Origin: a virus
Virus record (IMG/VR): IMGVR_UViG_3300032820_000036
Span: 1 to 39,234 of that record
Direction: 5' to 3' (one strand)
DNA: 39,234 nucleotides
Position numbers and translations under genes: made by a program
Shown: positions 9,425-36,621 of the stretch, piece after piece
Position numbering within the stretch: the stretch's first letter is position 1
How the letters are laid out: each line of letters begins with the position of its first letter
The notes under the pieces: generated by a model
Told to the model about the DNA's origin: nothing
The model's database searches: none
What the model saw: the letters and a program-made list of their open reading frames with translations, nothing else

Positions 9425-10258
9425 ATGGCAGAAGAAGAGGCTGCGGCAGAAGTTGCCGCACCGAGTGAAACGGGCGAGGTCGAGGGCGCGTCTTGGACCG
9501 ATGGCATGACCGAAGAGAGCGCCGGATTCGTTCAGAACAAGGGCTGGAAGAGTGCCGACCAGGCGCTCGAGAGCTATCGCAGTCTCGAGACGGCGATGAG
9601 GGCTCCAGCCGATCAATTGTTGCGCCTCCCCAAGGAGGAAGACTCCGAGGGTTGGGGCGAGGTCTACAGCAGGCTGGGGCGTCCGGAGGATCCCAGCGGG
9701 TACAAGTTCAATGATTCAGGAATGGAAGATGGTGGCTTTGGCCTCAAGGACAATCTACGAAACTGGGCACATGAGGCCGGAATGTCTCAGCAGCAGACTT
9801 CCCAGATATTCGACAAGTACAATGAGCGGATTCTCGAGATGGGCGATGAAATGAATGCCCAACGGCAGGAGCAGGCGGCATCGGAAGAGCAGGCTCTTCG
9901 CAAGGAATGGGGCAGTGCCTGGGAAGAGAACGTCACGGCGGGTACTCGATTTCGTCAACGATTTGGCATAGATGACGCGACCAGGGCGAAACTCGAGCAG
10001 GCCCTGGGGTTCCGCGGTCTGCTCGAATTGTCGGCCAAGATAGGTCGCGGACTGGGTGAGCACTCGATGCCGACCGGAGCCGAGGACAGCGCGGGTACGG
10101 CGTTCGGGGTGACTCCCGCAGCAGCCAAGGCCAAGATCGGAGACTTGACCCTCGACAAGGAATTCATGGATCAGTACCTGGCGGGGAATCCCGAGGCGGT
10201 GGCCCGGATGACCCGGCTCCACGCCCTGGCCCATCCCGAGGTTGCGGGATCCGAGTAA
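9425..10258 (+). CDS. Capsid scaffolding protein
   Basis: A 277-residue acidic, alanine/glutamate-rich helical protein directly upstream of the major capsid gene, where scaffold normally lies. It has an acidic N-terminus, a LPKEEDSEGWGEVYSRLGRP segment common in podovirus scaffolds, a long coiled region (about 110-165), and a C-terminal helix region that would contact capsid. Such proteins guide prohead assembly and leave on maturation. AGGAGG precedes the ATG at ideal spacing. Confidence 0.85.
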   Translation: MAEEEAAAEVAAPSETGEVEGASWTDGMTEESAGFVQNKGWKSADQALESYRSLETAMRAPADQLLRLPKEEDSEGWGEVYSRLGRPEDPSGYKFNDSGMEDGGFGLKDNLRNWAHEAGMSQQQTSQIFDKYNERILEMGDEMNAQRQEQAASEEQALRKEWGSAWEENVTAGTRFRQRFGIDDATRAKLEQALGFRGLLELSAKIGRGLGEHSMPTGAEDSAGTAFGVTPAAAKAKIGDLTLDKEFMDQYLAGNPEAVARMTRLHALAHPEVAGSE

Positions 10259-10461
10259 TACGCTAAATACGCGAAATGCGCTTAGGCGCATTTGAATGGC
10301 CCCGGCTTGCGACCGGCATAAGCCTTCCAGCAACATAAGGCCCCGGTTTGGCAACCGGCATAAGCCCTGGAAGCCACTTATACGATCGCAGGCCCCGCGG
10401 AGATCGCGGCATAAGCCTCGCAGGCACACACTGTGTGCCGAGACTTTAGGGCTATTTCACA
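10259..10461 (+). other. Structured leader of the major capsid gene (203 nt, multi-hairpin)
   Basis: No convincing gene lies here. A perfect 8-bp hairpin with a TTAG loop sits at 10274-10293. Three related 27-28 nt units lie at 10298-10324, 10339-10366 and 10391-10417. A perfect 8-bp inverted repeat (GGCACACA/TGTGTGCC) lies at 10423-10439. A 7-bp pairing (10324-10330 with 10367-10373) can enclose the second unit. None is followed by a T-run, so these are not typical terminators. They probably act in the RNA, for example by protecting or punctuating capsid mRNA. The capsid ribosome site (AGGG, about 10 nt from ATG) is weak. Confidence 0.75.
10298..10417 (+). repeat. Three diverged hairpin repeats
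   Basis: Units at 10298, 10339 and 10391 all begin GGCCCCG and end CGGCATAAGCC. The inner stems are CCGG/CCGG, CCGGTT/AACCGG and CCGCG/CGCGG. The fourth stem position changes from G-C to C-G in the third copy, keeping the pairing. The loops differ fully in sequence. Conserved ends with varied, compensated stems indicate selection on RNA or DNA structure. Confidence 0.8.
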
Positions 10462-11334
10462 ATGTCAAATCAAGTAAACACTGCTTTTGTGCAGCAGTAC
10501 GCCACCAATGTGGCGCACCTGTTGCAGCAGAAGGGCAGCAAGTTCAGAGATACGGTGATGAACGGTGCCGCAACCGGCAAGGCAGCCAAGGTTGTCGAGC
10601 AGGTGGGTGCAGTCAATGCCGTCAAGCGAACAACCAGGCACGCGGATACTCCGCTGATCGACACCCCGCACGATGCGCGGTGGACGTTTCCGGTGGATTA
10701 CGAGTGGGCCGACCTGATCGACGATCAGGACAAGATTCGGATGCTCATCAATCCCCAGTCGCCCTACGCGGTGAACGGGGCTTACGCGATGGGCCGTGCC
10801 ATCGATGACGAGATCATCGGGGCGTTCTTCGCGGACTCCAAGACGGGCGAGAACGGTACGGGGACCGAGCTGGGTTCCACGGTGGGCCAGGTTGCCAACC
10901 CTGGCGGTGGCAAGCTGACCATTGCTCAGCTGCAGGAGGGCAAGCGGATCCTCATGGCGAACGAGGTCGATCTCGACAACGATACGATCTACATGGCGAT
11001 CACGGCAGAGCAGCACGAAGACCTCCTCGGCATGACTCAGCTCCAGACCATCGATTCCAACGCCACCAAGGTGCTGGTCGATGGCCGGGTTCGGTCATTC
11101 CTGGGGATCAACTTCATTACGAGCGAGAGGCTGACTTCCGTAACGGCCTCGACCGATTGCCCGATGTGGGCGAAGTCTGGGATGCACCTCACGGTGTGGA
11201 ACGACATAACCACCAAGATCAGCGAGCGAGAGGACAAGTCCTACGCCACGCAGGTCTATTGCAAGACCACCATCGGGGCAACTCGCCTCGAGGCAGCGAA
11301 GGTTGTCAAGATCGTCGCGGATCGGGTGGCCTAG
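10462..11334 (+). CDS. Major capsid protein
   Basis: A 290-residue protein in the invariant position after the scaffold. The sequence (KGSKFRDTVMNGAATGKAAK; TPLIDTPHDARWTFPVDYEW; ADLIDDQDKIRMLINPQSPY) follows the major capsid family of Bbp-like podophages. It assembles the icosahedral head around the scaffold. It is preceded by a 203-nt structured leader and followed by an 8-bp imperfect hairpin at 11351-11378, so its transcript segment is bracketed by structure. Confidence 0.88.
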   Translation: MSNQVNTAFVQQYATNVAHLLQQKGSKFRDTVMNGAATGKAAKVVEQVGAVNAVKRTTRHADTPLIDTPHDARWTFPVDYEWADLIDDQDKIRMLINPQSPYAVNGAYAMGRAIDDEIIGAFFADSKTGENGTGTELGSTVGQVANPGGGKLTIAQLQEGKRILMANEVDLDNDTIYMAITAEQHEDLLGMTQLQTIDSNATKVLVDGRVRSFLGINFITSERLTSVTASTDCPMWAKSGMHLTVWNDITTKISEREDKSYATQVYCKTTIGATRLEAAKVVKIVADRVA

Positions 11335-16361: not shown

Positions 16362-17998
16362 AGATTCCCAGGATCGAGGCTGGCCCCGCAGAGTTCGGGA
16401 GACGTGCTGACCCTGGCGATATGGGGAGTGGTGCCGGTGCTCTTGCGAGTGGTCAAGCGGCTAAGGAACTTGGGCAAATTACACTTGCGCTATTTGAGCA
16501 AGAAATGTCTTCCAAAGTGGCGGCTGCTTCAGCGAGTGCTGGCAGTGAGTTGAACGATCTGCGCCTGGAAGTAGAGCAGGAGCCCGATCATCACAAGCGC
16601 AGTGAGTTGTATTCGACTGGATCGAAGAAGATCACCGATAAATTTCGCCAAGGTTTGATGTTCCCGAAGTACAAGAGTCTCTACGATTCTCGCATTTCAA
16701 AAACTCTCAATGGCAATCGCCTTAGCGTTGCCCAGAGTGTGCGCCAGTCACAGATCGACTCAAGTCGAGCGGATCGCAGGAGCTCCATCGAAAACTTTCA
16801 CGATCAGTACAAAAACACCATTGACGAATCAGTACGCAAAGACTTGCGTGACCAAATCCATGAGCAATGGGATGAGGGTGTAGAGGGTGGTTTGTGGACT
16901 GCGGATTATGCAGCGCAACAAAAGATCATTTCCGACAACCGATTTGAAACTGAACATCTCATCACCCAGAGCCAGATTGCTGCTGATGAAATCATGGACG
17001 AAGAATCGAACCCGAATAAGCGAGTGGCGCTAGCTCGCAAGAGGTACACGGGTGTAATGCGCGACCAGGTGGTGACTCGCTTGGAGCATCGAAACACTGA
17101 AGAGTTGAACGCTCAAGTGAAGGCGCACAATGTCCGGAAGAAGCAGTTGATCCTCCAGGCGTACAAGGAAGGTCCGGATAGGCTTACTCGAGAAGCCTTT
17201 ATGGAGATTGCAGCTCGCGAAAAGTTGCCGTCTGAAGTGATTTCTCCTGTTCTAACCGCGATAAAGTTGGCCGAAACGCGGGCCAACCCTTTGGAACTTT
17301 CGGAAGCAGAGGCGCTCAAGGCGCAGTTGTGGGAAACAAATAGCCAGCGTCTGTTTTTTCAGTTGATGGGAGAGGCTCAGAATTTTACGACTCGACCGCA
17401 TTTTCTCAGAAGGAATTTGTGGGCGGAATATGGAGCTCATATTGACGATAAGCTCTTGCAGAAACTTCTCGCTGAACAAGGCGAGGGGACTGCAAAGCTC
17501 GGCGTAGAATGGGCAAAACGGATTGAGCGCAAAATGGCCCAGTTGGGCCTCCCGGTAACTGCCGCACAGTATGCGGAGGAATCTGAGAAGGTTGCCGAAT
17601 CTGAAAATTTTCGAGCAAGAGCGTTGACCCACATTGAAGTTGCGACTGAGGCAAAAGGCTTGCCTCTCACGGAAACGGAAGTCCAAGGGATACTTGATGT
17701 TCTTGGCGATAAAATTGTGATAGATGAAGGACACATTTTTGATACAACGATTCGTCGTTACCAGGTCACGCCGGAAACGGAAGTTGACTGGCCCGATGAT
17801 GCTACTGAACAGCAAATACGCGATGTACACGGGCTTGGGAATCGGGATGATGTGGACGCCCTCGAACTAATCCGAAAGACTTTTGCAGAGATGGTATTTG
17901 GCAAATCCCTAATTCCTCTCCCTGAGCGGTACAAGGCGAGTCCGCCACAACAACCACAACGGACTGGCCCCGGCGGTACTGGCCGAAGCGGTCGATGA
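16358..17998 (+). CDS. Internal virion (ejection) protein, T7 gp15-like position
   Basis: A 546-residue, almost entirely helical, charged protein. It starts at GTG 16358, overlapping the upstream stop as GTGA. Heptad-like stretches lie at about 45-130 and 200-260, and the C-terminus is a proline/glycine tail (SPPQQPQRTGPGGTGRSGR). No catalytic motif is visible. Its place before the giant protein and its composition match internal core or ejection proteins. The start of the giant gene overlaps its stop as ATGA. Confidence 0.78.
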   Translation: MKIPRIEAGPAEFGRRADPGDMGSGAGALASGQAAKELGQITLALFEQEMSSKVAAASASAGSELNDLRLEVEQEPDHHKRSELYSTGSKKITDKFRQGLMFPKYKSLYDSRISKTLNGNRLSVAQSVRQSQIDSSRADRRSSIENFHDQYKNTIDESVRKDLRDQIHEQWDEGVEGGLWTADYAAQQKIISDNRFETEHLITQSQIAADEIMDEESNPNKRVALARKRYTGVMRDQVVTRLEHRNTEELNAQVKAHNVRKKQLILQAYKEGPDRLTREAFMEIAAREKLPSEVISPVLTAIKLAETRANPLELSEAEALKAQLWETNSQRLFFQLMGEAQNFTTRPHFLRRNLWAEYGAHIDDKLLQKLLAEQGEGTAKLGVEWAKRIERKMAQLGLPVTAAQYAEESEKVAESENFRARALTHIEVATEAKGLPLTETEVQGILDVLGDKIVIDEGHIFDTTIRRYQVTPETEVDWPDDATEQQIRDVHGLGNRDDVDALELIRKTFAEMVFGKSLIPLPERYKASPPQQPQRTGPGGTGRSGR

Positions 17999-20900
17999 GT
18001 TCCTCCCCGTACACAGATGAAGAAGTGCGCGCTGCTGGTGAGGCCGTGCGACTGCGTATTGCCGAAGAAGAGAAGGCAAAGGCGCGTAATCTCATTTCTG
18101 CGCGTTCTCGAGAGGAAGCGCCAAATCGGTTTGAGGCGCTCCAGTTGGAATCGCGTACCGGGGTTCCAGTAGATACGGTAGAGCGGAACCTCCCCGAAGT
18201 TCGATCGATGGATACGGCGAACGGTCTGGATCCCAATCGCGTGGCTACCAGTCCTGCTACGTCCAATTTGCTTTCCGGGCCTCTGGCTCCGATGGCGATG
18301 AAGGAGATCGCCGAGTCCCGTACTAAGAATGTACGTCCGACACTCGCTCCACTTTGGAGCCAGCCCTCGGAAGTTACGAGCCCTGTTGCCCAAGCTGGAT
18401 ATGGCGATGTGGCTTCGACTTCGCTCGATCGCGGGTCGTACATCGTTGACGTTGGTTTGTACGGCTCCCGTATTTTGAATGGCACGGCCAGCCCGATGGA
18501 TCGGATTCGCTTTGCGGAGTTGCGCCGCCAGGGGGCTCCCGTGGTTCCCGATTTACCAGGGTACGCGGATGACGTACTAGGAATGCTTGTCGAGCAGGCT
18601 CCAATTATGGGGAGCGTCCTTAGCTATGCCGGAGTAGGAGCTGCTACTGGGGCTGCCATTGGTGCGACGGCGTTTGGTGCGGGGGCCGGTCCAGGCGCGC
18701 TTCTTGGTGCCGGGGGCGGAACCTTTGTTGGCGCTTTCAACCTCGAGGCTGGGAATGCCCTGGCGGAAGTGATGGATGCCGCTGATGAGCTGAAGGCCAG
18801 CGAAGGCATTGAGATATCGGAGGATGTTCTCCACTGGACTGCGAGGTTTGTTGGACTCGTCAATGCTGGCATCGAGGTTACCGGGTGGGGGATAGTTTCT
18901 CGCGTTTTCGGATTAAGCGCCCTGGTGAAGGGACTTTCCAGAGATGCGGTAAAGCAAATACTCAAGTCGAAAACACTTCGACCCCATCTGAAAAAACTTG
19001 CAAAGCGTGTAGCCACGGCGGGGGCCGTTGGGTCAGTAGAGGAGTTCAGCCAGGAAGCTGTCAATGTAGCCGCTACCCATTTTATCATTTCTAACGCGAA
19101 GGGCGAAGATCTCGTACAAAAGCCGTCACGGGAGACTTGGGAAAGACTTTTCAAGGCGTGGGCTGCTGGCTTTATCGTCTCATCCTTTTATGGCGCTCCT
19201 GCTCATGCGGTTATGGCGGGTATTGAAAACGTATCGGCGAATAGGATTGCAAGGAGAAAGGAGGGGATCCTCGACAAGCTGGTTGAGTTTGTCGGCAACA
19301 GTAATTTGCCAAAAGCTGATGCGGCCAGGTTCAAGGAGTACCTGCAAAAGGTGATCGAGGAAGGTGGCGGCGATCCCAATATGTACATCGATGCGAGATC
19401 CGTGGCTGCCTATTTCGAGGCAAACGAAATCGAACTAAGCGAACTTGCGGAAGCGATCCCCGATGTGTTTGCCCAGTTGCCGGAAGCTCTTGCTGCTGGC
19501 GTTGATCTCGTAATTCCGATAGCCGACTACGCCACCTACCTAAGCGAGCACCATGAGGGTCTGAAGGCTCACGTTCGGCACGGGCTCAACGCTCCGAGCC
19601 CAGCGGAGGTGGGCGAGAACGAGGCCCAGGCTGAGTCGGATCTCGGGGAGGCTCTGACTAATCTTGACGAGGAAGAGGCGGCTGCGGCCAGCGCGACCCC
19701 TGGGGAGAGAATAGCCCAGGCGTACCTCCAGAAACTTGTCAGCGAGGGCGTCTACAGTCCCGCGGATGCCCACCAGCATTCTCAGGTGCTGGGGGCATTC
19801 ATGGAGGAACGCATTCAACGGAGGATCCGCGAAGAGTCCGACCGCCTTGGGAGGGAGTTGACTTCCGAAGAGGTCGAGGCAATTACCGAAAGGCTGGTGG
19901 CTCAGGCCGAGGCGGTTGCGGTGGAGGGCTGGGGAGCGTTGGATGTCCCAGCCCGTCCCACTTTCGAGCAGGCCCTGGAGCGTATCGATATGAATACGCT
20001 TCTGGATGAGATCCGATCGGGCGTTACCCCCGAGGTCAAGGGGATGTCGAGAACCCCGATTCTCAATGAGATCCGTCGCCAGGGCGGCGTTGCGACTGTT
20101 CATCAGACTGCCGGTGGATGGGTCCAGAGCCCTCTGGCTGCCGAGCTGGAGGCTCTTGGTGTTACCCCGAAGACCAACCCCGGTTTATTTCGGGATCCGC
20201 GCAACCGCGCAAAGTGGTCACAGGCGAAACGGCAGGAGGTTCCAGCCCCCAAGGCTGACTTCGATTCTTTCGACTGGACCGATAACGAGTTGCTTCGCGG
20301 CCCAACCGATGATTTCGGACGGCCTACAGACTTCGATGATTTATACGATGCGATAAGGGAAGAGCTCGCCGGGACTCCTCGCCGCACCGAAGCGGAGTCC
20401 CAGAAGATCGTCGATTTCCAGATCCCTCGCGAGCAACTCAGCGCGATCCTCGACCAGCTCGGCGTTGATCTCGAGACAACTACGAACGAAGAAATCATCG
20501 AGATGCTGCGGCAGCAGTTCCAGGTGGATGAGGCAGTCGAAGCTGACGCCCCTGGAGAGCTAGACGATGGCAGCGAGTTGTTCCAAAAGGCGAAGCTGGA
20601 AGACCAGATTCCTGGGCTAAAGGGGATACTTCCTTACCTTTCGGAGTCTGAAAAGGCGAAGCTCCGAAAAGATACCGGGCGCAGATTGGTTTCCATTTTT
20701 CAGGAGATGCCGGATGCAACAGAGCTAGCCAGCTTGGCATTCGCTGGCAGGGCGAAACGCGGATGGTATCGCGATAGCGCCAAGGCGTTGGTGGATATTT
20801 TTGGCATCGATGACGCGCCCAGGTTCGCCGCCCTCTTGGCAGCATTGTCGCCCCAAACCTCTGTTGAGGTGAATGCGCTGAATGCGTTGAATGTTTGGGT

Positions 20901-23900
20901 CAACTGGGTAAAGGCTGGGAGGCCGACTGGCAAGAAGGCGATTCTCCGCGTCATGGGTGATTCGGTCCTTGGAGATAAGGGCATCGAAAGCGTATTGGGA
21001 GCATGGCGGAATAATTCAATACGGGCGCTGTCATCGAAAGACCCCGGCTCCCTGGTTATCTCTGGCCCTAAAGTCAATTCCTTCATGCTGAATTTGAGGG
21101 GATTCGTTGACGAAGTCACAAACGATGCGTGGATGGCAAATGTCTTAGGGGTGGATCAAGAAATTTTCAGCGGCGCTATCAATGTTGCAGGGACAGATGC
21201 CGGTAAGGGTCCAGGGTATCTGGCTGCATCTGCGTTGATACGGAAGGCTGCGGACATTGTTTCTCGTAGGACGGGCGAGAATTGGAGCCCCTCAGAGGTT
21301 CAAGAGACTGTGTGGTCTTGGGCCAAGGCTCTTCTGGAGCAGAGGCTTTCCAAGGATGAGGCTCGCAGCGCGCTGAAGCTGGTTCGCGAGCAGGGTGGCC
21401 CTGACGTATTGCGGTTAGCCGATACGCCGGATTTTGCGGTACTCTTTGCAAATGGCATCTACAGGAAAATCCTTGAAGCCGGTGGGCTCGGAGAAGCCGC
21501 AGAGTTTGCAGCTCGCAGTGGACAGGCTGCTCGACGTGCTCGAGGAAGAGGGCGAGGCCCTGGCGGGCAAACGCCTGGAATTGCAAAAGATCGTTTTGAG
21601 GCCGATCTCCGAAGGGCCGCGAAAAGGCTAGACCGTCTAGCGGAAGCTAGGGCGGCTGCCAAAGCAGCGAAGACCCTCGAGCAGGCTGCGGTTCTGCGAG
21701 TTGATAAGCCCTCTCTCCCTGGCGTGTGGGTAGATTTCTCTGGCGCTGGCACGGTCGAGGCTGTGCTGGAAGGCGTCGAGGGCGTGGGTGCCACCGAGTA
21801 CAAGCCCGAGATCATTGCCCAGTACAACGAGGCCCACGGGACCAACTACGAGGCCGCCGATGTAAACGAGGTGGACCCGGCAGACATTGCCGCAGCCAAG
21901 CCCACTCTCTACGAAGCGAGCCCCGTCTGTAAGAATTTCTCCAAGGCGAAGGCACTCGCCCAGGCAGACGAGCTCGATCGGAAGTCTGCGGAGACTGTCG
22001 CCAACGTAATCCGCGTAGCGGAACCGCCTTTGGTTGTGGTCGAGAACGTGCCGAAGTATGCCGATACGGCGCTGTTCAAACTCATCACCGACGCCTTGGA
22101 TGAGAAGGGCTATACCTGGGAAGTTGTTATTCACGATGCTGCTGATTACGGGGCGGTTCAAACTCGTAAGCGGATGATCTTGCGCGCGGTGAAGGACGGA
22201 AAGCTGCCAGCTCGCCCAAAGGAGCAGGCTCCAGGCGATTGGTTTACTGCGGTCGAGGATTTGCTGGACGCAGCCCCGGATGCCACGATACCCCCGGTAG
22301 AGATGGGGCGTCTGCGCGAGATGGAATCACGCGGGAAGCTGGATTTCGACAAGCCGATCATAACTATGGGCGGGTCTGCATTTCGCGGAAGTTGGGCCGC
22401 ATCCAATGCCGGCGGTCCATCCCCAACGCTCAAGGCTTCCAACGAGGTTCCCCGGATCATTATGCCGGATGGGCGTGTAAAGCGCGTCACTCCCAGGATG
22501 ATGGCGCGTCTCATGGGGTTGCCCGATTCGTATCCCGTGCCAGAAAACAAAAGGCTTGCGAAGACTGTCCTTGGCAACGGTGTCCACGGTGCCACTACGC
22601 GGGCTTTGATCCAGCCCCTGGTGGATCAAGTGACGCCCCAGGCTGCGACCACCCTCGAGCAGTCCCCAGTCCCCGATGCGGAGCGCCCTCTTGGTGGCGT
22701 CTTCTATTCCGCCCTGGGCCGTGCGCTTCGCACTTCCAAGCAGCGAAAGATGACTGTGCAGCAGCTCCGCGGTTTGCTCAAAAAGGAGCGCGTGAAGGAA
22801 GAGGAGATTGTCTGGACTGGCCTCGACGAATTTCTCGAGGGTCTGGATCCCAAGGACAAGATTGATCTCGGCCTCCTGCTGGACAATATAAGCCTGGTCC
22901 AGGTCGAAGAGGTTGTGCTGGGTAAGTCGAAAATGGATGAGCTCCCAGATGAAAGAGCGTTGTGGGACGATTTGAATGATCCTGTCGGGTGGAAGATGCC
23001 AGATTTGGACTCTGCCGAGGCTCGCGATGTGGACGCGCCTGCGCCGTACAAAGATATAGTCGGAGAATCCGACGGAGAAGAATTCAAGTATCGAGTTTAC
23101 CTCTGGGAGGAGGGCCAGGATGTCTGGGTCAGGAGATCGCCTGATGACCCAGGCCAGACCGCGCTCTTAGAGATTGTGCCAGATGCGGAGTTTCCAGGGA
23201 CTCTTATTGACGCGGCGGTACAAACGATACTGAAAGATTTAGAATCTCGATTAAGTCCAGAACGGGAAAAGTTCGTTGGGGAACCCAAGTTCGACTCCCC
23301 TTCCTATCAACTCCCCGGCGGCAAGGACTATCGGGAGACGTTGATTACGTTGCCGCCCATCCATCACACTGCCGATATCGAGGCGCGAATTGACAGCCTG
23401 GAAAAGGGTAAGGAGTTCGCAGAAGGTGCGGACTGGGACGAGATGGATGCAGAGGTGCAGCGCCTAAAGGCATTGAGAAAACAGGACCGGCTATTCACCG
23501 GCGGCCACATGGGCGGTGTCGCCCCCAACATCCTGGTACACGTTCGCTGGAATGTTCGCACTGGACCCAACGGCGAGAAGATCCTTTTCATCGAAGAGAT
23601 CCAAGATGATTGGGCGAAGGCAGGGCGGAAGAGTGGGTATGCTGGGGCTTTTCCGCAGGAGGTGGTTGATGCTGCCGTTGCTGGAGGCATGACAGAAGAA
23701 GCGGCTGTGGCGGATGTTCGCCACCTCATGGAGGAACCGCTAGACGCGGAAGGCAGGCCGACAATGGACGAGTGGGCTCGGCTAATTAGTGCCACCGAGT
23801 ACAGCTCTATCGACCTGAACGAAGTTTTCCACGATCGCCGGGACAGAGGCGTCCCCGATCGCCCCTTCAAAACGTCCGGTGCCAGCACCATGCTTGCCTT

Positions 23901-26900
23901 CAAGCGGATGGTCGCCTACGCGGCAAAGAACGGTTTCGACTCCGTGGCTTGGACAACCGGCAAGGTTCAGGTGGAACGCTACGAGAGCGCGCTGCGCCAG
24001 TCGGTGGATGAGATCGAGTGGGAGCCGGGCCGGGTATCCGCCGGCGGCATAGGTTCTGCTGCCGGGTGGGCGCGTCCGAGCCATGTGAGTTTTATAAAGG
24101 ATGGCGAAGTCGTTCTGGACATGGACGTTGTAACCGAGACTGGGCTGGTGCTTACGACTTCGACGGGTGGCGAGGATGCAATCGGTGGACCCATCGAAGC
24201 GGTGGTGGGCAAGGATATCGCCTCGCAGATCCTCGACTCTGAGGAGGGCTCCGTCTCCGAAGAAAACCTCACGATCGGCGGCAAGGGATTTGAGGATATC
24301 TATGACAAGACCCTGGTGAAGGGCGCGAACAAACTAGGCAAGCCTTTCGGTACGAAGGTTGGGCGAATTGATGTGGGTACCGCACCAGGCCGATACGTTC
24401 CTGAAGGTCTTGACCAAACCTTCAGATACGAAGTCCACCTCGAGTCGGAACATGGGGACACGTTTTACGATTCTTACGAGACGATGGATGAAGCCCAATT
24501 CGCTGCGGCGTCCTACAGGACTGATATGCCAGAAGGACAGTGGTCTGTAATCGACTCTGAAAGTACAAAGGAAGGCCAGGGGACTCCCGTCCATAATCTC
24601 CCCATCACCGACAAGCTCCGGGCCAGCGTTGCGGCGGAGGGGTTCTCGTTGTTCCAGGCCGCAGCCGGAGGACCGCGAGGGCAGATCCGCTTCGATGCCG
24701 AGATGGAAAATATCGTCATACGATTCACCGAGGCCAGGGATTTGAGTACCGGGCTCCATGAGCTGGCGCATCTGTTCCTCGAGATGATAATGCAGGACGT
24801 GACACTCTCTGAATTGAATCGGGGTGGAGCCGCAGGCGCAGAACTTGCCAAGGATATGGAGGCCATTCTCAACTTCCTTGGGGTTTCGTCACTCGAGGAA
24901 ATTGAGACAGAGCACCATGAGAAGTGGGCCAGGGCGTTTGAGGCATACCTTCGCGAAGGGAAAGCGCCTTCAGTCGAATTGCAGTCTGCCTTTAAGCGGT
25001 TCAAGGCGTGGCTCATACAGATTTACAAAAGCCTTCGCCAGTTGAATGTCGAGCTGAGCCCGGAGATTCGCGAGGTTTTCGACCGGATGCTGGCGAGCGA
25101 GGAGCAGATCGCCCAGGCCAGGGATGCCGATATTCGGATGCAGCCCAGATTTGAAAGCGCGGAAGTTGCCGGCATGACTGACGGGGAGTTCGCAGAATAC
25201 GAAGCGTCTTACGATCGGTGGATGTCGCCGGCGCAGGAGCGGACATTGCGGGCCGCCTTGGCAGAGAAGAAGCGCGAAGGGACGAAGGTCTGGAAGCAGA
25301 ACTACGCGAAGATGCGGGCCGAGGTTGAGGCCGATATCAATTCCCAACCCGTCTACCGCCTTCGCCACTGGCTCCAACATGGGAAGTTTCTAGACGAAGA
25401 AACCCCAGAGGATCTCGAGCACGTTCGCCTGGATCGAGACATTCTGAAGAAACGCTACGGCAGGGCAATCTTGAAAGCGTTGGGAGGCGCTGGCAAGTAC
25501 GGGATGTGGCAGAAGGACGGGATCGGCCCGGATGCGATGGCCGATCTATTTGGTTTTGTTTCGGGAGATGCCCTGGTTCGCGCCTTGCAGCAATCGATCA
25601 ATCGCGACCAGGCCATCGATGAAGAAACGTCTCGCCGTATGAAGGAAGTCTACGGCGATATGCTGAATGACGGCTCGCTCGCGGAGCTCGCGCTTGATGA
25701 ATTGGAGAGTGACGAGAAGGGCAATTTCCTTTCGCGGGAACTGCGAGTGCTCGCCAAAAAGGCAGGAGCCCCTGGTACTCCGCAGGCCGTCTCCAAGAAG
25801 ATCGCCAAGAGGATGATCGCCCAGAAGCGGATCCGCGATTTGCGTGCTGACATTTTCCGGCGCGCGGAGCAGCGAGCAGCTCGGGAGGTTCTGGATGCCG
25901 TCGATGCTCAGAACTGGCAGGAGGCCCACGCCGCTTCCATGCGCCAGTTGCTCAGTCACTTCTTGGTGCTCGAGGCTACCCAACGTAAAGAGCAAACCAC
26001 GAAGTGGCATCTCTACCTACGCACGTTTGACGATAAGAAAAAGATCGAGAGGATTGGCAAGGCGGGAGGGGACCACCTCCAGCAGATATTCAATCTTCTA
26101 GACCGCTTCGATTTCCGAAAGATCAGCAACAAGGAAGCTGACCGCCGTCAGCGCCTGGCCGAATGGATCACGGAGAAAGAAGCAGAAGACGAGACGGCTG
26201 AATATGTGATCGACGATCGTCTGAGAGACGAGGCGTTCCGATCCCCCTGGCGGAACCTTACGGTCGAAGAGCTAGAGAGTGTTGTCGATGCTGTGAAGAA
26301 CATCGAGCACATGGCGATGCTCAAAAACAAATTGCTTCTCGCAAAGGACAAACGCGAGTTCGATGCCAAGGCCGAGCTCGCCGCCGAGACAATCGAAAGA
26401 AACCGCCGAAGCGCAAAGCCCATCCCGAAAGAGCACCATCTCAAGGAAACGGCCAAAGACCTAGCTGGCAGTTACTTTGCCAGCCACCGAAAGATTGCCA
26501 GCTTGGTGGAAGAAATGGATGGTCGCGAACTGGGTGGTCCGCTGTTCGACATGATCCTTCGCCCTATGGATGAGCAGTCATCGTGGGAAACCGAGGAGCG
26601 CGTAAAGTCTGCCGAGCGGCTCCATGAGTTGATCAAGCTCTACACCGATATCCCGCTGTTTGGATCAGAGAAGGCCAAGCAAGTAGCGACGAAGTTGACC
26701 CTGGGCTTTGTCGATCGAGTTCGCCCAGAGTTGTCTTTGCCGAAGCTGGTCCCAGGAACTGCCGATATTCATTTGTCAAAGATTGGCCGAATCGTGGCCG
26801 TGCTCAATACAGGCAACGCTGGGAATATGCAGCGGTTGAGGGATGGCTACGGGTGGTCCCCCGAAGATATCCAGGCGATTCGCAATAGCCTCTCCAAGGA

Positions 26901-28446
26901 GGATATGGATTTCGTCCAGGGCGTTTGGGATTTCATCGATGAATACTGGGAGCTGGTGGCCGCCAAGCAAAAGCGCGTTACTGGTGTGGCTCCCAAGAGG
27001 GTCACGCGCCAGCCGTTTACAACCATACACGGGACTTATGCTGGCGGGTATTTCCCGATCGCGGACGATCCAAATCAGACCGCCAGGGCTTACGGGAATG
27101 TCCTTGCCGAGACGGCCAAAGAAACTATGAGAGGTTTTCGGGCTGCGTCTACTACCCTTCGCGGCCATACGAAGGCACGCGCAGACAAGGTTATGGGCAA
27201 GAAACTGCGTCTCGATTTCGGGGTAATCTTTGAGCACGTCAACGGCGTTATCCACGATCTCGCTTGGCATGAGTGGCTCATCGATACGAATCGCCTCCTG
27301 CGTGACGAGAGAATTTCACAGGCCATCATCCAGGGATACGGCAACCCGGTCTATCGCAACTTGATCAATGCCGTGAGGGATATCGCTGCGGGCGATGTCG
27401 CTGCTGAGAAGGGCTGGGAGCAAGCAGTCAACTGGCTCCGCACCGGGGGGTCCATTGCCGCGATGGCACACAACGCGATGACGGCAGCCCTTCAGCCTTT
27501 CGGTATTTTTCAATCGTGGCAGATGATAGGGGTGGAGTGGGTTGCCAAGGGAATAGGGAAATGGTGGCGCGGCCCGGAGCAGATTCAAGGTACTGTCGAG
27601 TGGATCCATTCGGTGGACTCGTTTATGAAGAATCGCGCGCTAACGATGCAGCGCGAAATCCGCGAAGTCCAGCTATCAGCTCGCGAGGGCGGCGGGCCGA
27701 GCAGGTTCAAGGACAGTCTTTTCTATTTTATTGTCAAGACTCAGATGCTTGTCGATATTCCGACGTGGCTTGGCGCTTACGAGAAAGAGATGGAGATCGG
27801 CTCAGGTGACCACGATCGCGCAGTGGCGATGGCTAGGCGCACCGTGAAGGACACCCAGGGGAGCGGCGAGATATCGGATCTGTCGGCTATTCAACGCGGT
27901 AGTCCGTTGCTAAAAGCATGGACAGCGTTCTATCACTTCTTCAATACTACGATGAACCTCACCGCCCAGTCTTATCGCTCGACCGATTTCAAGCAGCCCC
28001 TCGAGGTGGGGAGGTTCGCCGCGGATATGGTTCTTCTCTATTCGTTTCCCGCCTTCCTCTCCGATCTGATGAGAAGAGCCATTATGGATAACTGGGATGA
28101 AGACGAGAGTTGGGGCGAGATGGTCATAAGATCCCACGCTGGATATGCGTTGGGCACACTGGTTGGCCCTCGAGAATTAAGCGGCATCGCCTCTGGCTTT
28201 ACCGATTACGAGGGGCCAGCGGGCACTCGATTCTTTTCGGCTATCTCGAAGCTCTCGGTTCAGGTTGGTCAGGGCGAGGTGGATGCGGCGTCCATCCGAG
28301 CTCTTAATGCAGCAGGCGGGATCGTGTTTCATTATCCGGCTATCTCGTTCCAGAGGATCGTCGAAGGAGCCCTCGCTATTTCAGCAGGGGAAACGCAAAA
28401 TCCGGTTCGGTTACTGACCGGGCCGACGAGGGAACAGAGGCAATGA
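17995..28446 (+). CDS. Giant polyvalent virion protein (3483 aa) with embedded C5 methyltransferase and zincin motif
   Basis: One uninterrupted frame covering 27% of the window, in the T7 gp16-like position. Visible regions: a glycine/alanine-rich hydrophobic segment (about 194-250); a possible HhH-GPD-like region (about 873-1165; LSPQTS 951-956, SGPKVNSF 1023-1030, TNDAWMANVLG 1042-1052); a C5 cytosine methyltransferase (about 1243-1545; DFSGAG, SPVCKNFS with C1312, ENV 1350-1352, QTRKRM 1389-1394, GNGV 1527-1530); an uncharacterised domain common in polyvalent proteins (about 1773-2180; HVRWNVRTGPNGEKILFIEE); a zincin motif HELAH (2255-2259) with HEKWARAFEAYL about 50 residues on; long helical regions; and a hydrophobic C-terminal region with NAMTAALQPFGIFQSW. 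Such proteins are thought to be ejected with DNA and act in the new host. Both enzyme roles are inferred from motifs. Confidence 0.88.
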   Translation: MSSSPYTDEEVRAAGEAVRLRIAEEEKAKARNLISARSREEAPNRFEALQLESRTGVPVDTVERNLPEVRSMDTANGLDPNRVATSPATSNLLSGPLAPMAMKEIAESRTKNVRPTLAPLWSQPSEVTSPVAQAGYGDVASTSLDRGSYIVDVGLYGSRILNGTASPMDRIRFAELRRQGAPVVPDLPGYADDVLGMLVEQAPIMGSVLSYAGVGAATGAAIGATAFGAGAGPGALLGAGGGTFVGAFNLEAGNALAEVMDAADELKASEGIEISEDVLHWTARFVGLVNAGIEVTGWGIVSRVFGLSALVKGLSRDAVKQILKSKTLRPHLKKLAKRVATAGAVGSVEEFSQEAVNVAATHFIISNAKGEDLVQKPSRETWERLFKAWAAGFIVSSFYGAPAHAVMAGIENVSANRIARRKEGILDKLVEFVGNSNLPKADAARFKEYLQKVIEEGGGDPNMYIDARSVAAYFEANEIELSELAEAIPDVFAQLPEALAAGVDLVIPIADYATYLSEHHEGLKAHVRHGLNAPSPAEVGENEAQAESDLGEALTNLDEEEAAAASATPGERIAQAYLQKLVSEGVYSPADAHQHSQVLGAFMEERIQRRIREESDRLGRELTSEEVEAITERLVAQAEAVAVEGWGALDVPARPTFEQALERIDMNTLLDEIRSGVTPEVKGMSRTPILNEIRRQGGVATVHQTAGGWVQSPLAAELEALGVTPKTNPGLFRDPRNRAKWSQAKRQEVPAPKADFDSFDWTDNELLRGPTDDFGRPTDFDDLYDAIREELAGTPRRTEAESQKIVDFQIPREQLSAILDQLGVDLETTTNEEIIEMLRQQFQVDEAVEADAPGELDDGSELFQKAKLEDQIPGLKGILPYLSESEKAKLRKDTGRRLVSIFQEMPDATELASLAFAGRAKRGWYRDSAKALVDIFGIDDAPRFAALLAALSPQTSVEVNALNALNVWVNWVKAGRPTGKKAILRVMGDSVLGDKGIESVLGAWRNNSIRALSSKDPGSLVISGPKVNSFMLNLRGFVDEVTNDAWMANVLGVDQEIFSGAINVAGTDAGKGPGYLAASALIRKAADIVSRRTGENWSPSEVQETVWSWAKALLEQRLSKDEARSALKLVREQGGPDVLRLADTPDFAVLFANGIYRKILEAGGLGEAAEFAARSGQAARRARGRGRGPGGQTPGIAKDRFEADLRRAAKRLDRLAEARAAAKAAKTLEQAAVLRVDKPSLPGVWVDFSGAGTVEAVLEGVEGVGATEYKPEIIAQYNEAHGTNYEAADVNEVDPADIAAAKPTLYEASPVCKNFSKAKALAQADELDRKSAETVANVIRVAEPPLVVVENVPKYADTALFKLITDALDEKGYTWEVVIHDAADYGAVQTRKRMILRAVKDGKLPARPKEQAPGDWFTAVEDLLDAAPDATIPPVEMGRLREMESRGKLDFDKPIITMGGSAFRGSWAASNAGGPSPTLKASNEVPRIIMPDGRVKRVTPRMMARLMGLPDSYPVPENKRLAKTVLGNGVHGATTRALIQPLVDQVTPQAATTLEQSPVPDAERPLGGVFYSALGRALRTSKQRKMTVQQLRGLLKKERVKEEEIVWTGLDEFLEGLDPKDKIDLGLLLDNISLVQVEEVVLGKSKMDELPDERALWDDLNDPVGWKMPDLDSAEARDVDAPAPYKDIVGESDGEEFKYRVYLWEEGQDVWVRRSPDDPGQTALLEIVPDAEFPGTLIDAAVQTILKDLESRLSPEREKFVGEPKFDSPSYQLPGGKDYRETLITLPPIHHTADIEARIDSLEKGKEFAEGADWDEMDAEVQRLKALRKQDRLFTGGHMGGVAPNILVHVRWNVRTGPNGEKILFIEEIQDDWAKAGRKSGYAGAFPQEVVDAAVAGGMTEEAAVADVRHLMEEPLDAEGRPTMDEWARLISATEYSSIDLNEVFHDRRDRGVPDRPFKTSGASTMLAFKRMVAYAAKNGFDSVAWTTGKVQVERYESALRQSVDEIEWEPGRVSAGGIGSAAGWARPSHVSFIKDGEVVLDMDVVTETGLVLTTSTGGEDAIGGPIEAVVGKDIASQILDSEEGSVSEENLTIGGKGFEDIYDKTLVKGANKLGKPFGTKVGRIDVGTAPGRYVPEGLDQTFRYEVHLESEHGDTFYDSYETMDEAQFAAASYRTDMPEGQWSVIDSESTKEGQGTPVHNLPITDKLRASVAAEGFSLFQAAAGGPRGQIRFDAEMENIVIRFTEARDLSTGLHELAHLFLEMIMQDVTLSELNRGGAAGAELAKDMEAILNFLGVSSLEEIETEHHEKWARAFEAYLREGKAPSVELQSAFKRFKAWLIQIYKSLRQLNVELSPEIREVFDRMLASEEQIAQARDADIRMQPRFESAEVAGMTDGEFAEYEASYDRWMSPAQERTLRAALAEKKREGTKVWKQNYAKMRAEVEADINSQPVYRLRHWLQHGKFLDEETPEDLEHVRLDRDILKKRYGRAILKALGGAGKYGMWQKDGIGPDAMADLFGFVSGDALVRALQQSINRDQAIDEETSRRMKEVYGDMLNDGSLAELALDELESDEKGNFLSRELRVLAKKAGAPGTPQAVSKKIAKRMIAQKRIRDLRADIFRRAEQRAAREVLDAVDAQNWQEAHAASMRQLLSHFLVLEATQRKEQTTKWHLYLRTFDDKKKIERIGKAGGDHLQQIFNLLDRFDFRKISNKEADRRQRLAEWITEKEAEDETAEYVIDDRLRDEAFRSPWRNLTVEELESVVDAVKNIEHMAMLKNKLLLAKDKREFDAKAELAAETIERNRRSAKPIPKEHHLKETAKDLAGSYFASHRKIASLVEEMDGRELGGPLFDMILRPMDEQSSWETEERVKSAERLHELIKLYTDIPLFGSEKAKQVATKLTLGFVDRVRPELSLPKLVPGTADIHLSKIGRIVAVLNTGNAGNMQRLRDGYGWSPEDIQAIRNSLSKEDMDFVQGVWDFIDEYWELVAAKQKRVTGVAPKRVTRQPFTTIHGTYAGGYFPIADDPNQTARAYGNVLAETAKETMRGFRAASTTLRGHTKARADKVMGKKLRLDFGVIFEHVNGVIHDLAWHEWLIDTNRLLRDERISQAIIQGYGNPVYRNLINAVRDIAAGDVAAEKGWEQAVNWLRTGGSIAAMAHNAMTAALQPFGIFQSWQMIGVEWVAKGIGKWWRGPEQIQGTVEWIHSVDSFMKNRALTMQREIREVQLSAREGGGPSRFKDSLFYFIVKTQMLVDIPTWLGAYEKEMEIGSGDHDRAVAMARRTVKDTQGSGEISDLSAIQRGSPLLKAWTAFYHFFNTTMNLTAQSYRSTDFKQPLEVGRFAADMVLLYSFPAFLSDLMRRAIMDNWDEDESWGEMVIRSHAGYALGTLVGPRELSGIASGFTDYEGPAGTRFFSAISKLSVQVGQGEVDAASIRALNAAGGIVFHYPAISFQRIVEGALAISAGETQNPVRLLTGPTREQRQ
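24042..24071 (+). repeat. 30-bp exact repeat, copy 2
   Basis: Identical to 15860-15889 and in the same frame (GGIGSAAGWA, residues 2017-2026 of the giant protein). It sits inside a region otherwise made of charged beta-type sequence, where this glycine/alanine segment looks out of place. Confidence 0.9.
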
Positions 28447-30974
28447 CAATCACCTCAAGCCAAATGAGGACGGACCCGGTTGTCGGGACCGGATCCGAGA
28501 AGGACTTCACCGTACCCTTTCGCTTCCTAGCGAAGGAAGACCTGACTGTAATTCTCAGGGAGGGGGATTCCGATACCATCCAGGTGCTCGATACTAACTA
28601 CACAGTGAGTGCTGCTGGCGTATCGAGCGGTGGTACGGTCACCTTCGTTGTAGCTCCCACTTCGTTGCAGAAGGTGATCGTCATAAACGACCCCGCTCTT
28701 ATCCAGGGTACAGATTACGTTAGCGGTGGCACGTTTAGCGCAGAATCCCATGAAACTGCGCTCGACAAGTTAACTGTCCAGCAGCAACGCACTAGGGACT
28801 TTGTCGATCGGTCGATGTATCTGAAGGATGGAGACGTTGACGGGTCTGGCGGGTTCGATACTCGAGGAAATCAAATCACACTACCGGCTACTCCGGTTGG
28901 ATCGTCAGACGCTACTTCCAAATCCTATGTGGATTCTGAGATTTCATCGAGGATCTTGGCTGGAGCTGGTGCTTATCCTGTCAGCGATTCTGCGGTGGTC
29001 GCAACGAAGCCTTCCGGATCTGATCTCACAGCCAGGACGTTGGCCGATCGATTCGGCGACTCTCTCAGCATTCTCGACTTCGGAGTGACTGGCGGGGCAG
29101 ATGATACCCTCGCGATTCAGGACGCGATTGACCGGACGGCCCTCGCTGGCATGGGGCTGTACGTCCCGCCTGGTACGTTTATCGTTACCAACCTAGTAAT
29201 CAAAACGAACATGAGAATGTTCGGCGAGGGCACGATCAAGAGAAAGGACGCCGGAAGCCTTCTCTTGTTTAGTGCATCTACTGTGAATTCATTTTCCATC
29301 GAAGGCATTACAATCGATGGAAACAAGTCAGGAGCGCCGGCATCCACGCACGCAATATCTATCGGTGCATCGAGTTATAAGTTTACGCTCGACAGACTGA
29401 CCATCATAAACGGTGACCATAATGGGATAGCCGTTATCAACTCTGATGATCGAGATCAGAAAACCCAAAGCTATATTCGCAATTGCAGAATTCGAGATTG
29501 CGATGCGATCGGAATTGAAATCGAAGCCTGTAGCGATCTGACCGTTTCCGGCAATTCGATTTCGGGAACTGGCGGGTATGGAATATCGCTTATCGGACCC
29601 ATTGTCGGCCTATCGGATTTGGTAACCATTGAAAGTAATTCAGTGGAGGATTCCGGTTCTTTTGGGATTTATATCCAGTGGGTTATTGACGTTATCACTC
29701 CAATTTACTCAGTCACAAATCTGAACCTATCGAATAATAAGGTTAGAAATTCCTTTTACGATGGCATCTGGGTCGCTTCCGAAGACTCCACAATATCGGG
29801 AAACTTATCATCGGATAACGGTACCGGCGGGACAGAATTTTACGATCACGGCTTTTCGATCGCGGGGAACCGACTGACATTTTCTGGTAACACAGCCCTG
29901 GGGAATCCCGGTTCAGGTGTTGTTACCAAGGATTGCGGTTTCCTTACCGTAACAGCAAACGTCGTTAAGGGTAATGGGTATAACGGCATCCAGTTCAACG
30001 CAACGAATAGCGTGGTAGCGGATGGAAATATCGTATCTGGCAACTGGACAAACTCCACTTCTGGTTACGCTGCAAATCTTAGAGCTGGAATCCTTGTTCA
30101 CAAAAACGGGTACGGAAGTGCGGACGGTGTGTATTCCAACGATACGGAAGACATAACAATCACCAACAACGATGTGAAGTCTGGCACTGCCCAGGCTTAC
30201 GGAGTTTCCGTTATCGGGGCTACCACTGATAGAGTGATGATTTCTGACAACAACCTCGCATCCTCTGGAGTTACGCGGGCGATCAATATCGAAGCCAACA
30301 ATGGGACGTTCTCCTGCAATGGGAATCTCGATCCTTCCGGGTCTTCGCTTACGGCAGCCGCAGCACTCGTTGTCGATCAAAATTCCCGCTTCGCTGTTGT
30401 GAGCGGAAACACTGGTATCACATCTATCAAAACGGACACCGAGAAATACGAGCGTGGCCGACAGCTAACCCTTCTTTTCACGGGCACGCCTACTATCACA
30501 AGCGGTAGCAATCTGAAGTTGAACGGAGATCTGGCTGTTGGTTCGGATGACTCCACCCTAACGCTGGCAAGCGAGGCTGGAAATTGGTACGAGGTTTCCA
30601 GAATGGTCCCAGCCGCATTTGGCTCGACCGGAGAAACGTACTTTCAGTCACCACAGCAGACCATCTCTCCTGCGGATGATGCTTCAATCGCTCACGGACT
30701 CAGCTCGCTCCCTAGAATCGTGACTGCTCATCTTGTTTGTTTGACGGCAGAGCACGGCTATGCAATCGGCGACGAGATAGTGGTACCAACGGGTATCTAT
30801 CACAACGATACGGCGATAACCGATTACCATACTGGCTTTTTCTATGGTGCGAATGCTACCCATGTTTTTTATGTGGCAGGAGCTAGCCACACTTATATTT
30901 TGCACAAGACCACAGGGGCTGGTTCTACCACTACCCATGCTTATTGGCGTCTTGTGTTGCGAGCCTGGACGTAG
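28443..30974 (+). CDS. Tailspike 1: anchor domain plus right-handed beta-helix
   Basis: An 843-residue protein overlapping the giant gene by ATGA. Residues 1-160 form a T7 gp17-like virion-attachment domain (DYVSGGTFSAESHETALDKL; TVQQQRTRDFVDRS). Then ILDFGVTGGADDTLAIQDAI and GLYVPPGTFIV start a pectate-lyase-type beta-helix (about 205-640) with repeated N-x-I/V-S-G-N turns. A C-terminal domain (about 690-843) follows, with HGLSSLPRIVTAHLVC. It recognises, and may degrade, host surface polysaccharide. No catalytic residues can be assigned by eye. The first 230 residues are paralogous to the next gene product. Confidence 0.88.
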   Translation: MTITSSQMRTDPVVGTGSEKDFTVPFRFLAKEDLTVILREGDSDTIQVLDTNYTVSAAGVSSGGTVTFVVAPTSLQKVIVINDPALIQGTDYVSGGTFSAESHETALDKLTVQQQRTRDFVDRSMYLKDGDVDGSGGFDTRGNQITLPATPVGSSDATSKSYVDSEISSRILAGAGAYPVSDSAVVATKPSGSDLTARTLADRFGDSLSILDFGVTGGADDTLAIQDAIDRTALAGMGLYVPPGTFIVTNLVIKTNMRMFGEGTIKRKDAGSLLLFSASTVNSFSIEGITIDGNKSGAPASTHAISIGASSYKFTLDRLTIINGDHNGIAVINSDDRDQKTQSYIRNCRIRDCDAIGIEIEACSDLTVSGNSISGTGGYGISLIGPIVGLSDLVTIESNSVEDSGSFGIYIQWVIDVITPIYSVTNLNLSNNKVRNSFYDGIWVASEDSTISGNLSSDNGTGGTEFYDHGFSIAGNRLTFSGNTALGNPGSGVVTKDCGFLTVTANVVKGNGYNGIQFNATNSVVADGNIVSGNWTNSTSGYAANLRAGILVHKNGYGSADGVYSNDTEDITITNNDVKSGTAQAYGVSVIGATTDRVMISDNNLASSGVTRAINIEANNGTFSCNGNLDPSGSSLTAAAALVVDQNSRFAVVSGNTGITSIKTDTEKYERGRQLTLLFTGTPTITSGSNLKLNGDLAVGSDDSTLTLASEAGNWYEVSRMVPAAFGSTGETYFQSPQQTISPADDASIAHGLSSLPRIVTAHLVCLTAEHGYAIGDEIVVPTGIYHNDTAITDYHTGFFYGANATHVFYVAGASHTYILHKTTGAGSTTTHAYWRLVLRAWT

Positions 30975-30985
30975 GAGAACCTGAA

Positions 30986-35996: not shown

Positions 35997-36621
35997 CAAC
36001 CGGCAACGCCGAAGAAAAGAAAGCGTTGATAATTCTCCGGTCGAGCTGTCTGACCCTTTCTTTCGACAAGCCGACTGCTTGCCCAATTTCCCCCAAAGTT
36101 CTGAATGGATCTTGCAGCGTTCGTCCTTTGAAGATCACCCTATCCCTTACGGTCATTTGCCCCATCTTCTCGAGTAGCCAAGCTGGGGGCATATTCTGAA
36201 TTGCGAAGTTAAGTTGGGTTCTTAGGGCCTGGTTCCAGTTCACCATTCCTGTGCGTAACTCCTGAACCTCCAGACTCAAATTTAGGTTTCGCTCCAGCAC
36301 TTCCATGTACTTGCTTTCTCTGTCCATGTACTTGCTTTTTCTGACTACCCAGGCGTCCTCGCTGTAATTGTCGAGAACTAGCCCCCAATCGTTGTCATGG
36401 GATGGCGGCCCCTCGATTGTTGGGTTTTGAAAGATGATTTGAAGTGCTCTGTCGGTAGTTGATTTGTCAAGGTACGCGACTCCTGCGTCTCGACTTTTAA
36501 TCTCGCCCAGGTCTTCATGTTCTCTGGCGAGGTTCACGATCTCCTTGCCAGCGCGCTCTACGATCTCCATCATTTCAGGGTGGTCTTGGTATTTTATGAA
36601 CAGAGTTATTTTGAGTTTCAT
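35932..36621 (-). CDS. Sigma-70 region 4-like regulatory protein
   Basis: A 229-residue protein. Residues about 150-202 match sigma region 4: MTVRDRVIFKGR, TLGEIGQAVGLSKERVRQLD (176-195), then a final helix. No regions 2 or 3 are visible, so it cannot act as a full sigma factor by itself; it may bind -35-like DNA or the RNA polymerase flap. The N-terminal 150 residues are unrecognised and include a short repeat (SKYM at 96 and 103). It is the last gene of the leftward block. Its ATG overlaps the stop of the alternative frame in the methyltransferase gene (ATGA), and AGGAAAG precedes it. Confidence 0.72.
   Translation of the reverse strand: MKLKITLFIKYQDHPEMMEIVERAGKEIVNLAREHEDLGEIKSRDAGVAYLDKSTTDRALQIIFQNPTIEGPPSHDNDWGLVLDNYSEDAWVVRKSKYMDRESKYMEVLERNLNLSLEVQELRTGMVNWNQALRTQLNFAIQNMPPAWLLEKMGQMTVRDRVIFKGRTLQDPFRTLGEIGQAVGLSKERVRQLDRRIINAFFSSALPVANPLGKRLAPCKTSQFRRSTS

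Follow-up and report, generated by a model that had tools for sequence, protein, structure and literature searches.

An internal-loop RNA unit conserved in phage capsid gene leaders and its possible role in capsid translation

For most tailed phages it is not known what sets the amount and timing of capsid and scaffold synthesis, both of which have to be right. The question is raised by the 203-nt leader at positions 10259-10461 of a 39,234-base virus record (the whole of which was analysed and is referred to as the window), where the original prediction had read five successive hairpins as a possible new RNA element that protects or processes the capsid mRNA, binds a phage protein or marks packaging. 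The gene order in the window is terminase, portal, a scaffold-type gene (phrog_3742), the leader, capsid (PF19821) and tail tubes; the scaffold/capsid-assembly type gene occupies 9425-10258, 5' of the leader, and the major capsid protein gene (PF19821 Phage_capsid_2, phrog_3437) occupies 10462-11334, both on the + strand. The leader had also been described as not terminator-like and, in agreement with this, no intrinsic terminator (a G+C-rich hairpin followed by a T run) was found on the + strand between 10150 and 10560, nor was any promoter-like site seen in the leader region. Elsewhere in the window, a 3,483-aa ORF (17995-28446, +) encodes a very large multi-domain protein, probably virion-associated, in which a C-5 cytosine methylase domain (residues 1248-1538) is combined with DUF7178 and a C-terminal part belonging to phrog_9880. 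Two consecutive tail proteins (28443-30974 and 30944-33037, +) have beta-helix or pectate-lyase-like domains; their N-terminal parts both match one protein of Yersinia phage YeP5, so that the pair may act as alternative or branched receptor-binding proteins. The - strand carries a second ORF resembling a DNA methyltransferase (phrog_1008) at 36618-37895.

All of the structures originally proposed for the leader are present on the + strand. The perfect 8-bp hairpin on the 5' side (AAATGCGC/GCGCATTT; 10274-10293, arms 10274-10281 and 10286-10293) is specific to this clade, lies outside the conserved motif described below and was not seen in the leaders of relatives. Three homologous units follow: GGC-C-CCGG-cuugcga-CCGG-CAUAA-GCC (unit 1, 10298-10324), GGC-C-CCGGUU-uggc-AACCGG-CAUAA-GCC (unit 2, 10339-10366; its loop belongs to the UGGCR class, which is found in upstream units) and GGC-C-CCGCG-gagau-CGCGG-CAUAA-GCC (unit 3, 10391-10417), so that the G-C to C-G swap noted in the third stem is borne out by CCGCG/CGCGG in unit 3 versus CCGG/CCGG in units 1 and 2. 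The 7-bp helix able to enclose the middle unit is formed by CTTCCAG (10324-10330), the sequence of which is conserved in close relatives, and CTGGAAG (10367-10373). The last perfect 8-bp inverted repeat (GGCACACA/TGTGTGCC; 10423-10439, arms 10423-10430 and 10432-10439) is enclosed by CTCG (10417-10420) and CGAG (10439-10442) and is predicted to fold as 7 bp with a 3-nt loop; this outer hairpin recurs in some of the closest relatives and is elsewhere absent or replaced by other hairpins. By its position, AGGGCT (10448-10453) is presumed to be the Shine-Dalgarno (SD) region of the capsid gene, and it is complementary to AGCCCT (10363-10368) at the 3' end of unit 2, a candidate for SD sequestration. 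The predicted folding energy of the leader is -90 kcal/mol compared to -74.7 ± 4.9 kcal/mol for dinucleotide shuffles (z -3.1). Unit 1 in isolation is predicted to prefer another fold, and when RNAalifold is applied to complete leaders of close relatives, cross-pairing between the near-identical units 1 and 2 prevails.

When the window capsid protein was used as the search bait, units were found at the same place in the leaders of close relatives (L001-L019, 72-92% identity), and far more distant capsid relatives carry between one and four units per leader. Comparison of these leaders defines a motif of ~20-31 nt that consists of a variable outer helix, a C, an inner helix that opens with a C-G pair, a bulge of AYAA or AYAC (AYAM) and the other strand of the outer helix. 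The conserved object is this C / AYAM internal-loop unit in one to four copies and not the array of five hairpins that had been put forward as the element. A loose descriptor of the unit matched 57 of 67 non-redundant PF19821 leaders and 25 of 28 leaders of a second capsid family, phrog_9953, compared to 166 of 1,900 background windows. A pattern scan independent of the capsid returned 56 stretches, ~40 of which are followed, 19-162 nt downstream and on the same strand, by an ORF with a relationship to the window capsid; two further stretches precede a phrog_9953 capsid, and about ten, located inside ORFs or beside unrelated genes, look like chance matches. We also built a covariance model from 34 sequences, among which units 1 and 3 of the window were included and unit 2 was not. 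In the window this model matched unit 1 (21.1 bits, E = 3.4e-4), unit 2 (19.6 bits, E = 1.1e-3) and unit 3 (18.0 bits, E = 3.7e-3), with the next best place at E = 0.085. Across 95 loci (553 kb) it gave 118 matches at E <= 1, the great majority (106) no more than 260 nt ahead of a capsid start, eight ~0.9-1.3 kb upstream of it in or near the start of the scaffold gene, and four elsewhere.

The covariance-model comparison with related phages, which had been proposed as a check, shows that the hairpins are kept and that their stems covary. The model was built on a MAFFT alignment of 34 rows, three of them shifted by about one column. In an alignment of units fitted to this model, 97.4% of pair cells are complementary compared to 73.5% after shuffling, and the covariation score is 0.502 compared to 0.093 after shuffling and at most 0.06 for slid structures. 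Changes on both sides were seen at six of the seven pairs, G-U is rare among the pairs that vary, and the inner pair beside the C is C-G in all rows except two. Because of this fit, and because training sequences are among the rows, we added two tests that did not require the pairing under test: the outer helix was fully paired in 115 instances compared to 60 after shuffling (maximum 79), and in the inner helix pair 3 was formed in 72 of 88 instances and pair 4 in 69 of 76, compared to 46 and 33 after shuffling. As the sequences are related to each other, none of these values is to be read as a probability. Overall, the retention of the units in related phages and the extensive compensatory change strongly support the view that the unit is, as originally suggested, a new RNA element selected for pairing.

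Three capsid families, PF19821, phrog_9953 and SU10_MCP, have the motif ahead of their genes, and its carriers include metagenomic phages, prophages of Pseudomonas and Yersinia phage YeP5. A search with the phrog_9953 protein recovered the motif in nearly all of its relatives, often in two copies and with varied outer helices (CGG/CCG, CGC/GCG, GGA/UCC, AGC/GCU and CUC/GAG), and profile comparison by hhalign, with shallow profiles, detected no relation between PF19821 and phrog_9953 capsids. In one locus (L131) the unit precedes a gene that lies upstream of the phrog_9953 capsid gene, and a strong intrinsic terminator (a GC-rich hairpin and T run) is located directly upstream of this unit. Many Pseudomonas genomes contain prophage-type capsid genes preceded by CGG-C-CUGCG..CGCAG-AYAM-CCG and then by a second unit; a pattern for the first of these found 44 sites in IMG/VR, each of which (44/44) had a same-strand capsid homologue starting 100-118 nt downstream. 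YeP5 has the units CAG-C-CCGG..CCGG-AUAC-CUG and GAG-C-CGG-GAAA-CCG-AUAC-CUC, and the former is the top match of the covariance model in the whole YeP5 genome (13.5 bits, E 0.12). Among six long phage records, five contained one or two model matches each, the sites where there were two (G006, the record of L040) being the capsid leader and the scaffold start, and the record with no match was of the Pseudomonas type. In a search for a host cognate of the motif, in which 150 candidates were scored in each of three Pseudomonas host genomes, the matches were at noise level. The apical loops of most units vary freely, and the upstream units of multi-unit leaders often have a UGGYR apical loop (15/26 compared to 2/65 single-unit leaders). 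A conserved GNRA hairpin of the GUCGG-GAAA-CCGAC type, found in Pseudomonas prophages and YeP5, stands before the units ~180 nt upstream of the capsid start in L231-L245 and also in L252, and might dock into the internal loop. No motif was found with the close capsid relatives in Pelagibacter phages, and no convincing unit was seen where the capsid gene abuts the previous gene or the leader is AT-rich. The capsid relatives without a convincing unit come from Pelagibacter, Vibrio K300, Alteromonas ZP6, Acinetobacter, Escherichia APEC, Microcystis Mel-JY34 and EBPR podovirus 3, part of them judged mainly from the annotated gap, and many of the records compared are metagenomic fragments.

In one large group of leaders a second element, CCCG-ACAA-CCC-loop-GGG-C-CGGG, is located ~50-80 nt further upstream. 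Here the strands of the internal loop are unchanged and the hairpin loop closes the opposite side, making the element a circular permutation of the unit. About 20 leaders carry this form with a covarying outer helix (CCC/GGG, GCC/GGC, GUC/GAC, CCA/UGG, CUC/GAG, UCC/GGA and GCU/AGC), which was complete in 20 of 34 instances compared to 5.0 after shuffling (maximum 12), and the SU10_MCP leader (L308) has a direct unit together with a permuted one, the latter read by eye. Because the same internal loop persists when the connectivity of its strands is permuted, the C / AYAM loop appears to be the conserved module, and the permutation is the strongest sign that the loop itself would be the functional part.

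Units are also found at the start of the scaffold gene. In L040, L048, L052, L069 and L070, a unit with the outer helix GCC/GGC lies a few codons past the scaffold start codon, and related sites lie near the scaffold start in L130, L137, L174 and L091; the model found none at the start of the window scaffold gene, where some relatives have one. The peptides encoded by these units are alike (about SEA-AP--GGQG), and conservation at the protein level may therefore contribute; the bases of the inner stem nonetheless change in pairs.

The relationship between the units and the SD region was assessed by comparing the pairing of the final 24 nt with the leader to which they belong and with the leaders of other phages in the group. 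The own leader was the best partner in 50 of 56 PF19821 cases (p 5.5e-10) and in 18 of 25 phrog_9953 cases (p 0.007). When only the last unit and its 3' flank were considered, own pairing exceeded swapped pairing in 48 of 54 PF19821 leaders (p 4.3e-9) and was weak in the phrog_9953 group (14/25, p 0.05), in which the partner of the SD region is more often the first unit. The partner is either the apical half of the unit, as in L048 (CUCCUACGAG with CUCGUAGGAG), or the 3' strand of the unit and its flank, as in L027 (CCCCUUGA with UCAAGGGG) and L035; in leaders of the Pseudomonas type, pairing is possible between a GAUGCACGCC segment and GGAGUGCAUC and would enclose the second unit. Although the pairing of AGCCCU (10363-10368) with AGGGCU (10448-10453) in the window is not significant alone (p 0.13), as a group the SD regions are complementary to their leaders beyond chance by the swap and shuffle tests. 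Since the SD region covaries with the unit or with the bases just 3' of it, folding of the unit and sequestration of the SD region can compete, which points to a role in translation that was absent from the original proposals.

We therefore considered the leader as a structured cis-acting RNA that would control capsid translation, the internal loop serving as a binding module in competition with SD sequestration, and on the sequence comparisons we give this reading about an even chance of being right. The working part would be the asymmetric internal loop, with C on one strand, AYAA or AYAC opposite and a C-G pair on the inner side, built either as a hairpin or as its circular permutation and present in one to four copies. 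A trans-acting factor bound there would shift the balance between unit folding and SD sequestration and so set capsid output during infection, and a unit at the scaffold start could set scaffold output likewise. A search for a phage-encoded partner showed that the window and YeP5 share only the portal, capsid and tail-tube proteins and the N-termini of tail fibres. As the motif precedes three capsid families and only structural genes are common to these two phages, a host factor, or one otherwise widely shared, is favoured over a capsid-specific one. Thus, from the suggestion that the element binds a phage protein, the binding of some factor is retained as likely and a phage protein specific to one capsid family is disfavoured. 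The wider proposal, that an undescribed module, the C / AYAM loop with its strands connected either way, acts as a translational switch for shell proteins across families and hosts and is read by a conserved host factor, is put forward tentatively and with less confidence. Against a translational switch, a bound unit inside the start of the scaffold ORF would more simply repress, and related phages exist that have no motif. The weak pairing of the SD region with the last unit in the phrog_9953 group, the non-significant pairing in the window and the preference of RNAalifold for cross-pairing of units 1 and 2 also count against it.

Several copies of the unit precede the gene of the most abundantly made virion protein, and the unit could instead act in mRNA processing or stability, either as a site where a specific endonuclease cuts to generate the 5' end of an abundant capsid mRNA or as a structure that shields this end. 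RNase processing in phage mRNA leaders is well known (T4 review, PMC3014915), and an endonuclease could accept as substrate helices of 3-6 bp that contain an internal loop; however, this explanation does not predict covariation between the SD region and the unit, a cut inside the start of the scaffold ORF would destroy the message, and the inner helices are short for RNase III, so we regard processing or stability as unlikely. Autogenous control, with the units as the operator through which a capsid, scaffold or portal protein regulates its own production, would account for units before capsid genes and at scaffold starts and fits the presence of portal and capsid among the few genes common to the window and YeP5. 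Yet three capsid families, two of them with no detected relation, would all need to recognise one internal loop, and the close capsid relatives in Pelagibacter phages have no units; an operator of this kind seems improbable.

Sharing across unrelated phages would also be explained if the unit resembled the put RNA of phage HK022, in which two stem-loops with a bulged region act without any phage protein (PMC9378689), and if the nascent RNA bound host RNA polymerase to resist pausing or termination in the late operon. However, put is ~70 nt long and follows early promoters, whereas the unit may be single and is found far inside the structural operon, 20-160 nt ahead of a start codon, where it covaries with the SD region, or even a few codons inside an ORF, and a transcription element of this type appears just as improbable as the operator. 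A DNA-level or packaging signal could draw on the scarcity of G-U among the varying pairs and on the ability of single-stranded DNA to form hairpins; against it stand the fixed orientation, the short distance to start codons, the SD covariation, the scaffold-start sites and the lack of any unit near the window terminase gene by the covariance model. The packaging mark originally suggested is hence unlikely, given that the motif keeps to one place and strand, both at scaffold starts and upstream of capsid genes from several families, and we consider inverted repeats acting in this way to be the most doubtful of these readings by far. Taken together, the position, strand, SD covariation and scaffold-start sites are better explained by control of translation initiation than by packaging or termination.

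An RNA module that precedes three capsid families offers a concrete, mutable handle on capsid and scaffold dosage, and the motif is testable since an isolated Yersinia phage and prophages of Pseudomonas carry it. If its partner is a host factor, many phages would depend on one host RNA-binding activity. The motif would also add a structured-RNA family missing from Rfam 15, which holds the known riboswitch classes: the window gave nothing at the gathering threshold and, near it in a permissive search, one chance miRNA match (E 1.8), and relatives gave nothing relevant. While structured cis-regulatory leaders are known, no description of the C / AYAM module or of its distribution was found in the open-access literature searched. 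As the loop might mimic an rRNA site bound by a ribosomal protein, E. coli 16S, 23S and 5S rRNA were scanned with a descriptor of it, and neither a direct nor a permuted match was found.

Among known systems, a kink-turn has a 3-nt bulge followed by tandem sheared G-A / A-G pairs and was rejected because the consensus C / AYAM loop has Watson-Crick flanks and no tandem G-A pairs; resemblances to the twister-sister ribozyme and to the GNRA-tetraloop receptor were set aside, as there was no Rfam match and the strand pattern differs. The guanidine-II riboswitch likewise places two or more similar small hairpins in tandem upstream of the SD region, but its conserved bases are the apical loops, whereas here the internal loop is conserved, also in circularly permuted form; with apical loops that vary freely in most units and no Rfam match, a riboswitch of this type was discarded. 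Coat proteins of RNA phages feed back on their own synthesis via operator hairpins, which resemble the motif as small hairpins with unpaired bases near a phage start codon and are read as translational control; their bulge and loop sequences differ, and the motif is not bound to one capsid family. HK022 put, which brings about anti-termination through the zinc-binding domain of RNA polymerase, is similarly a phage-encoded structured RNA with tandem stem-loops, a bulge and a host partner (a partner that for the motif is inferred), and so gives a precedent for a phage RNA that uses a host factor. It acts on transcription, whereas the motif adjoins the start codons of head genes, and units of 20-31 nt before capsid genes are not the two-stem RNA of put near early promoters, so identity with put was rejected. 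The T4 genes e, soc, 49 and I-TevI sequester the SD region in a leader helix (PMC3014915), which is a precedent for SD sequestration in phages, and are similar in that these are late phage genes, including one for a capsid accessory protein (soc). Unlike the motif, the T4 leaders have no repeated conserved internal-loop module and no conservation across capsid families, and sequestration is relieved there by late promoters and not by a known RNA-binding factor.
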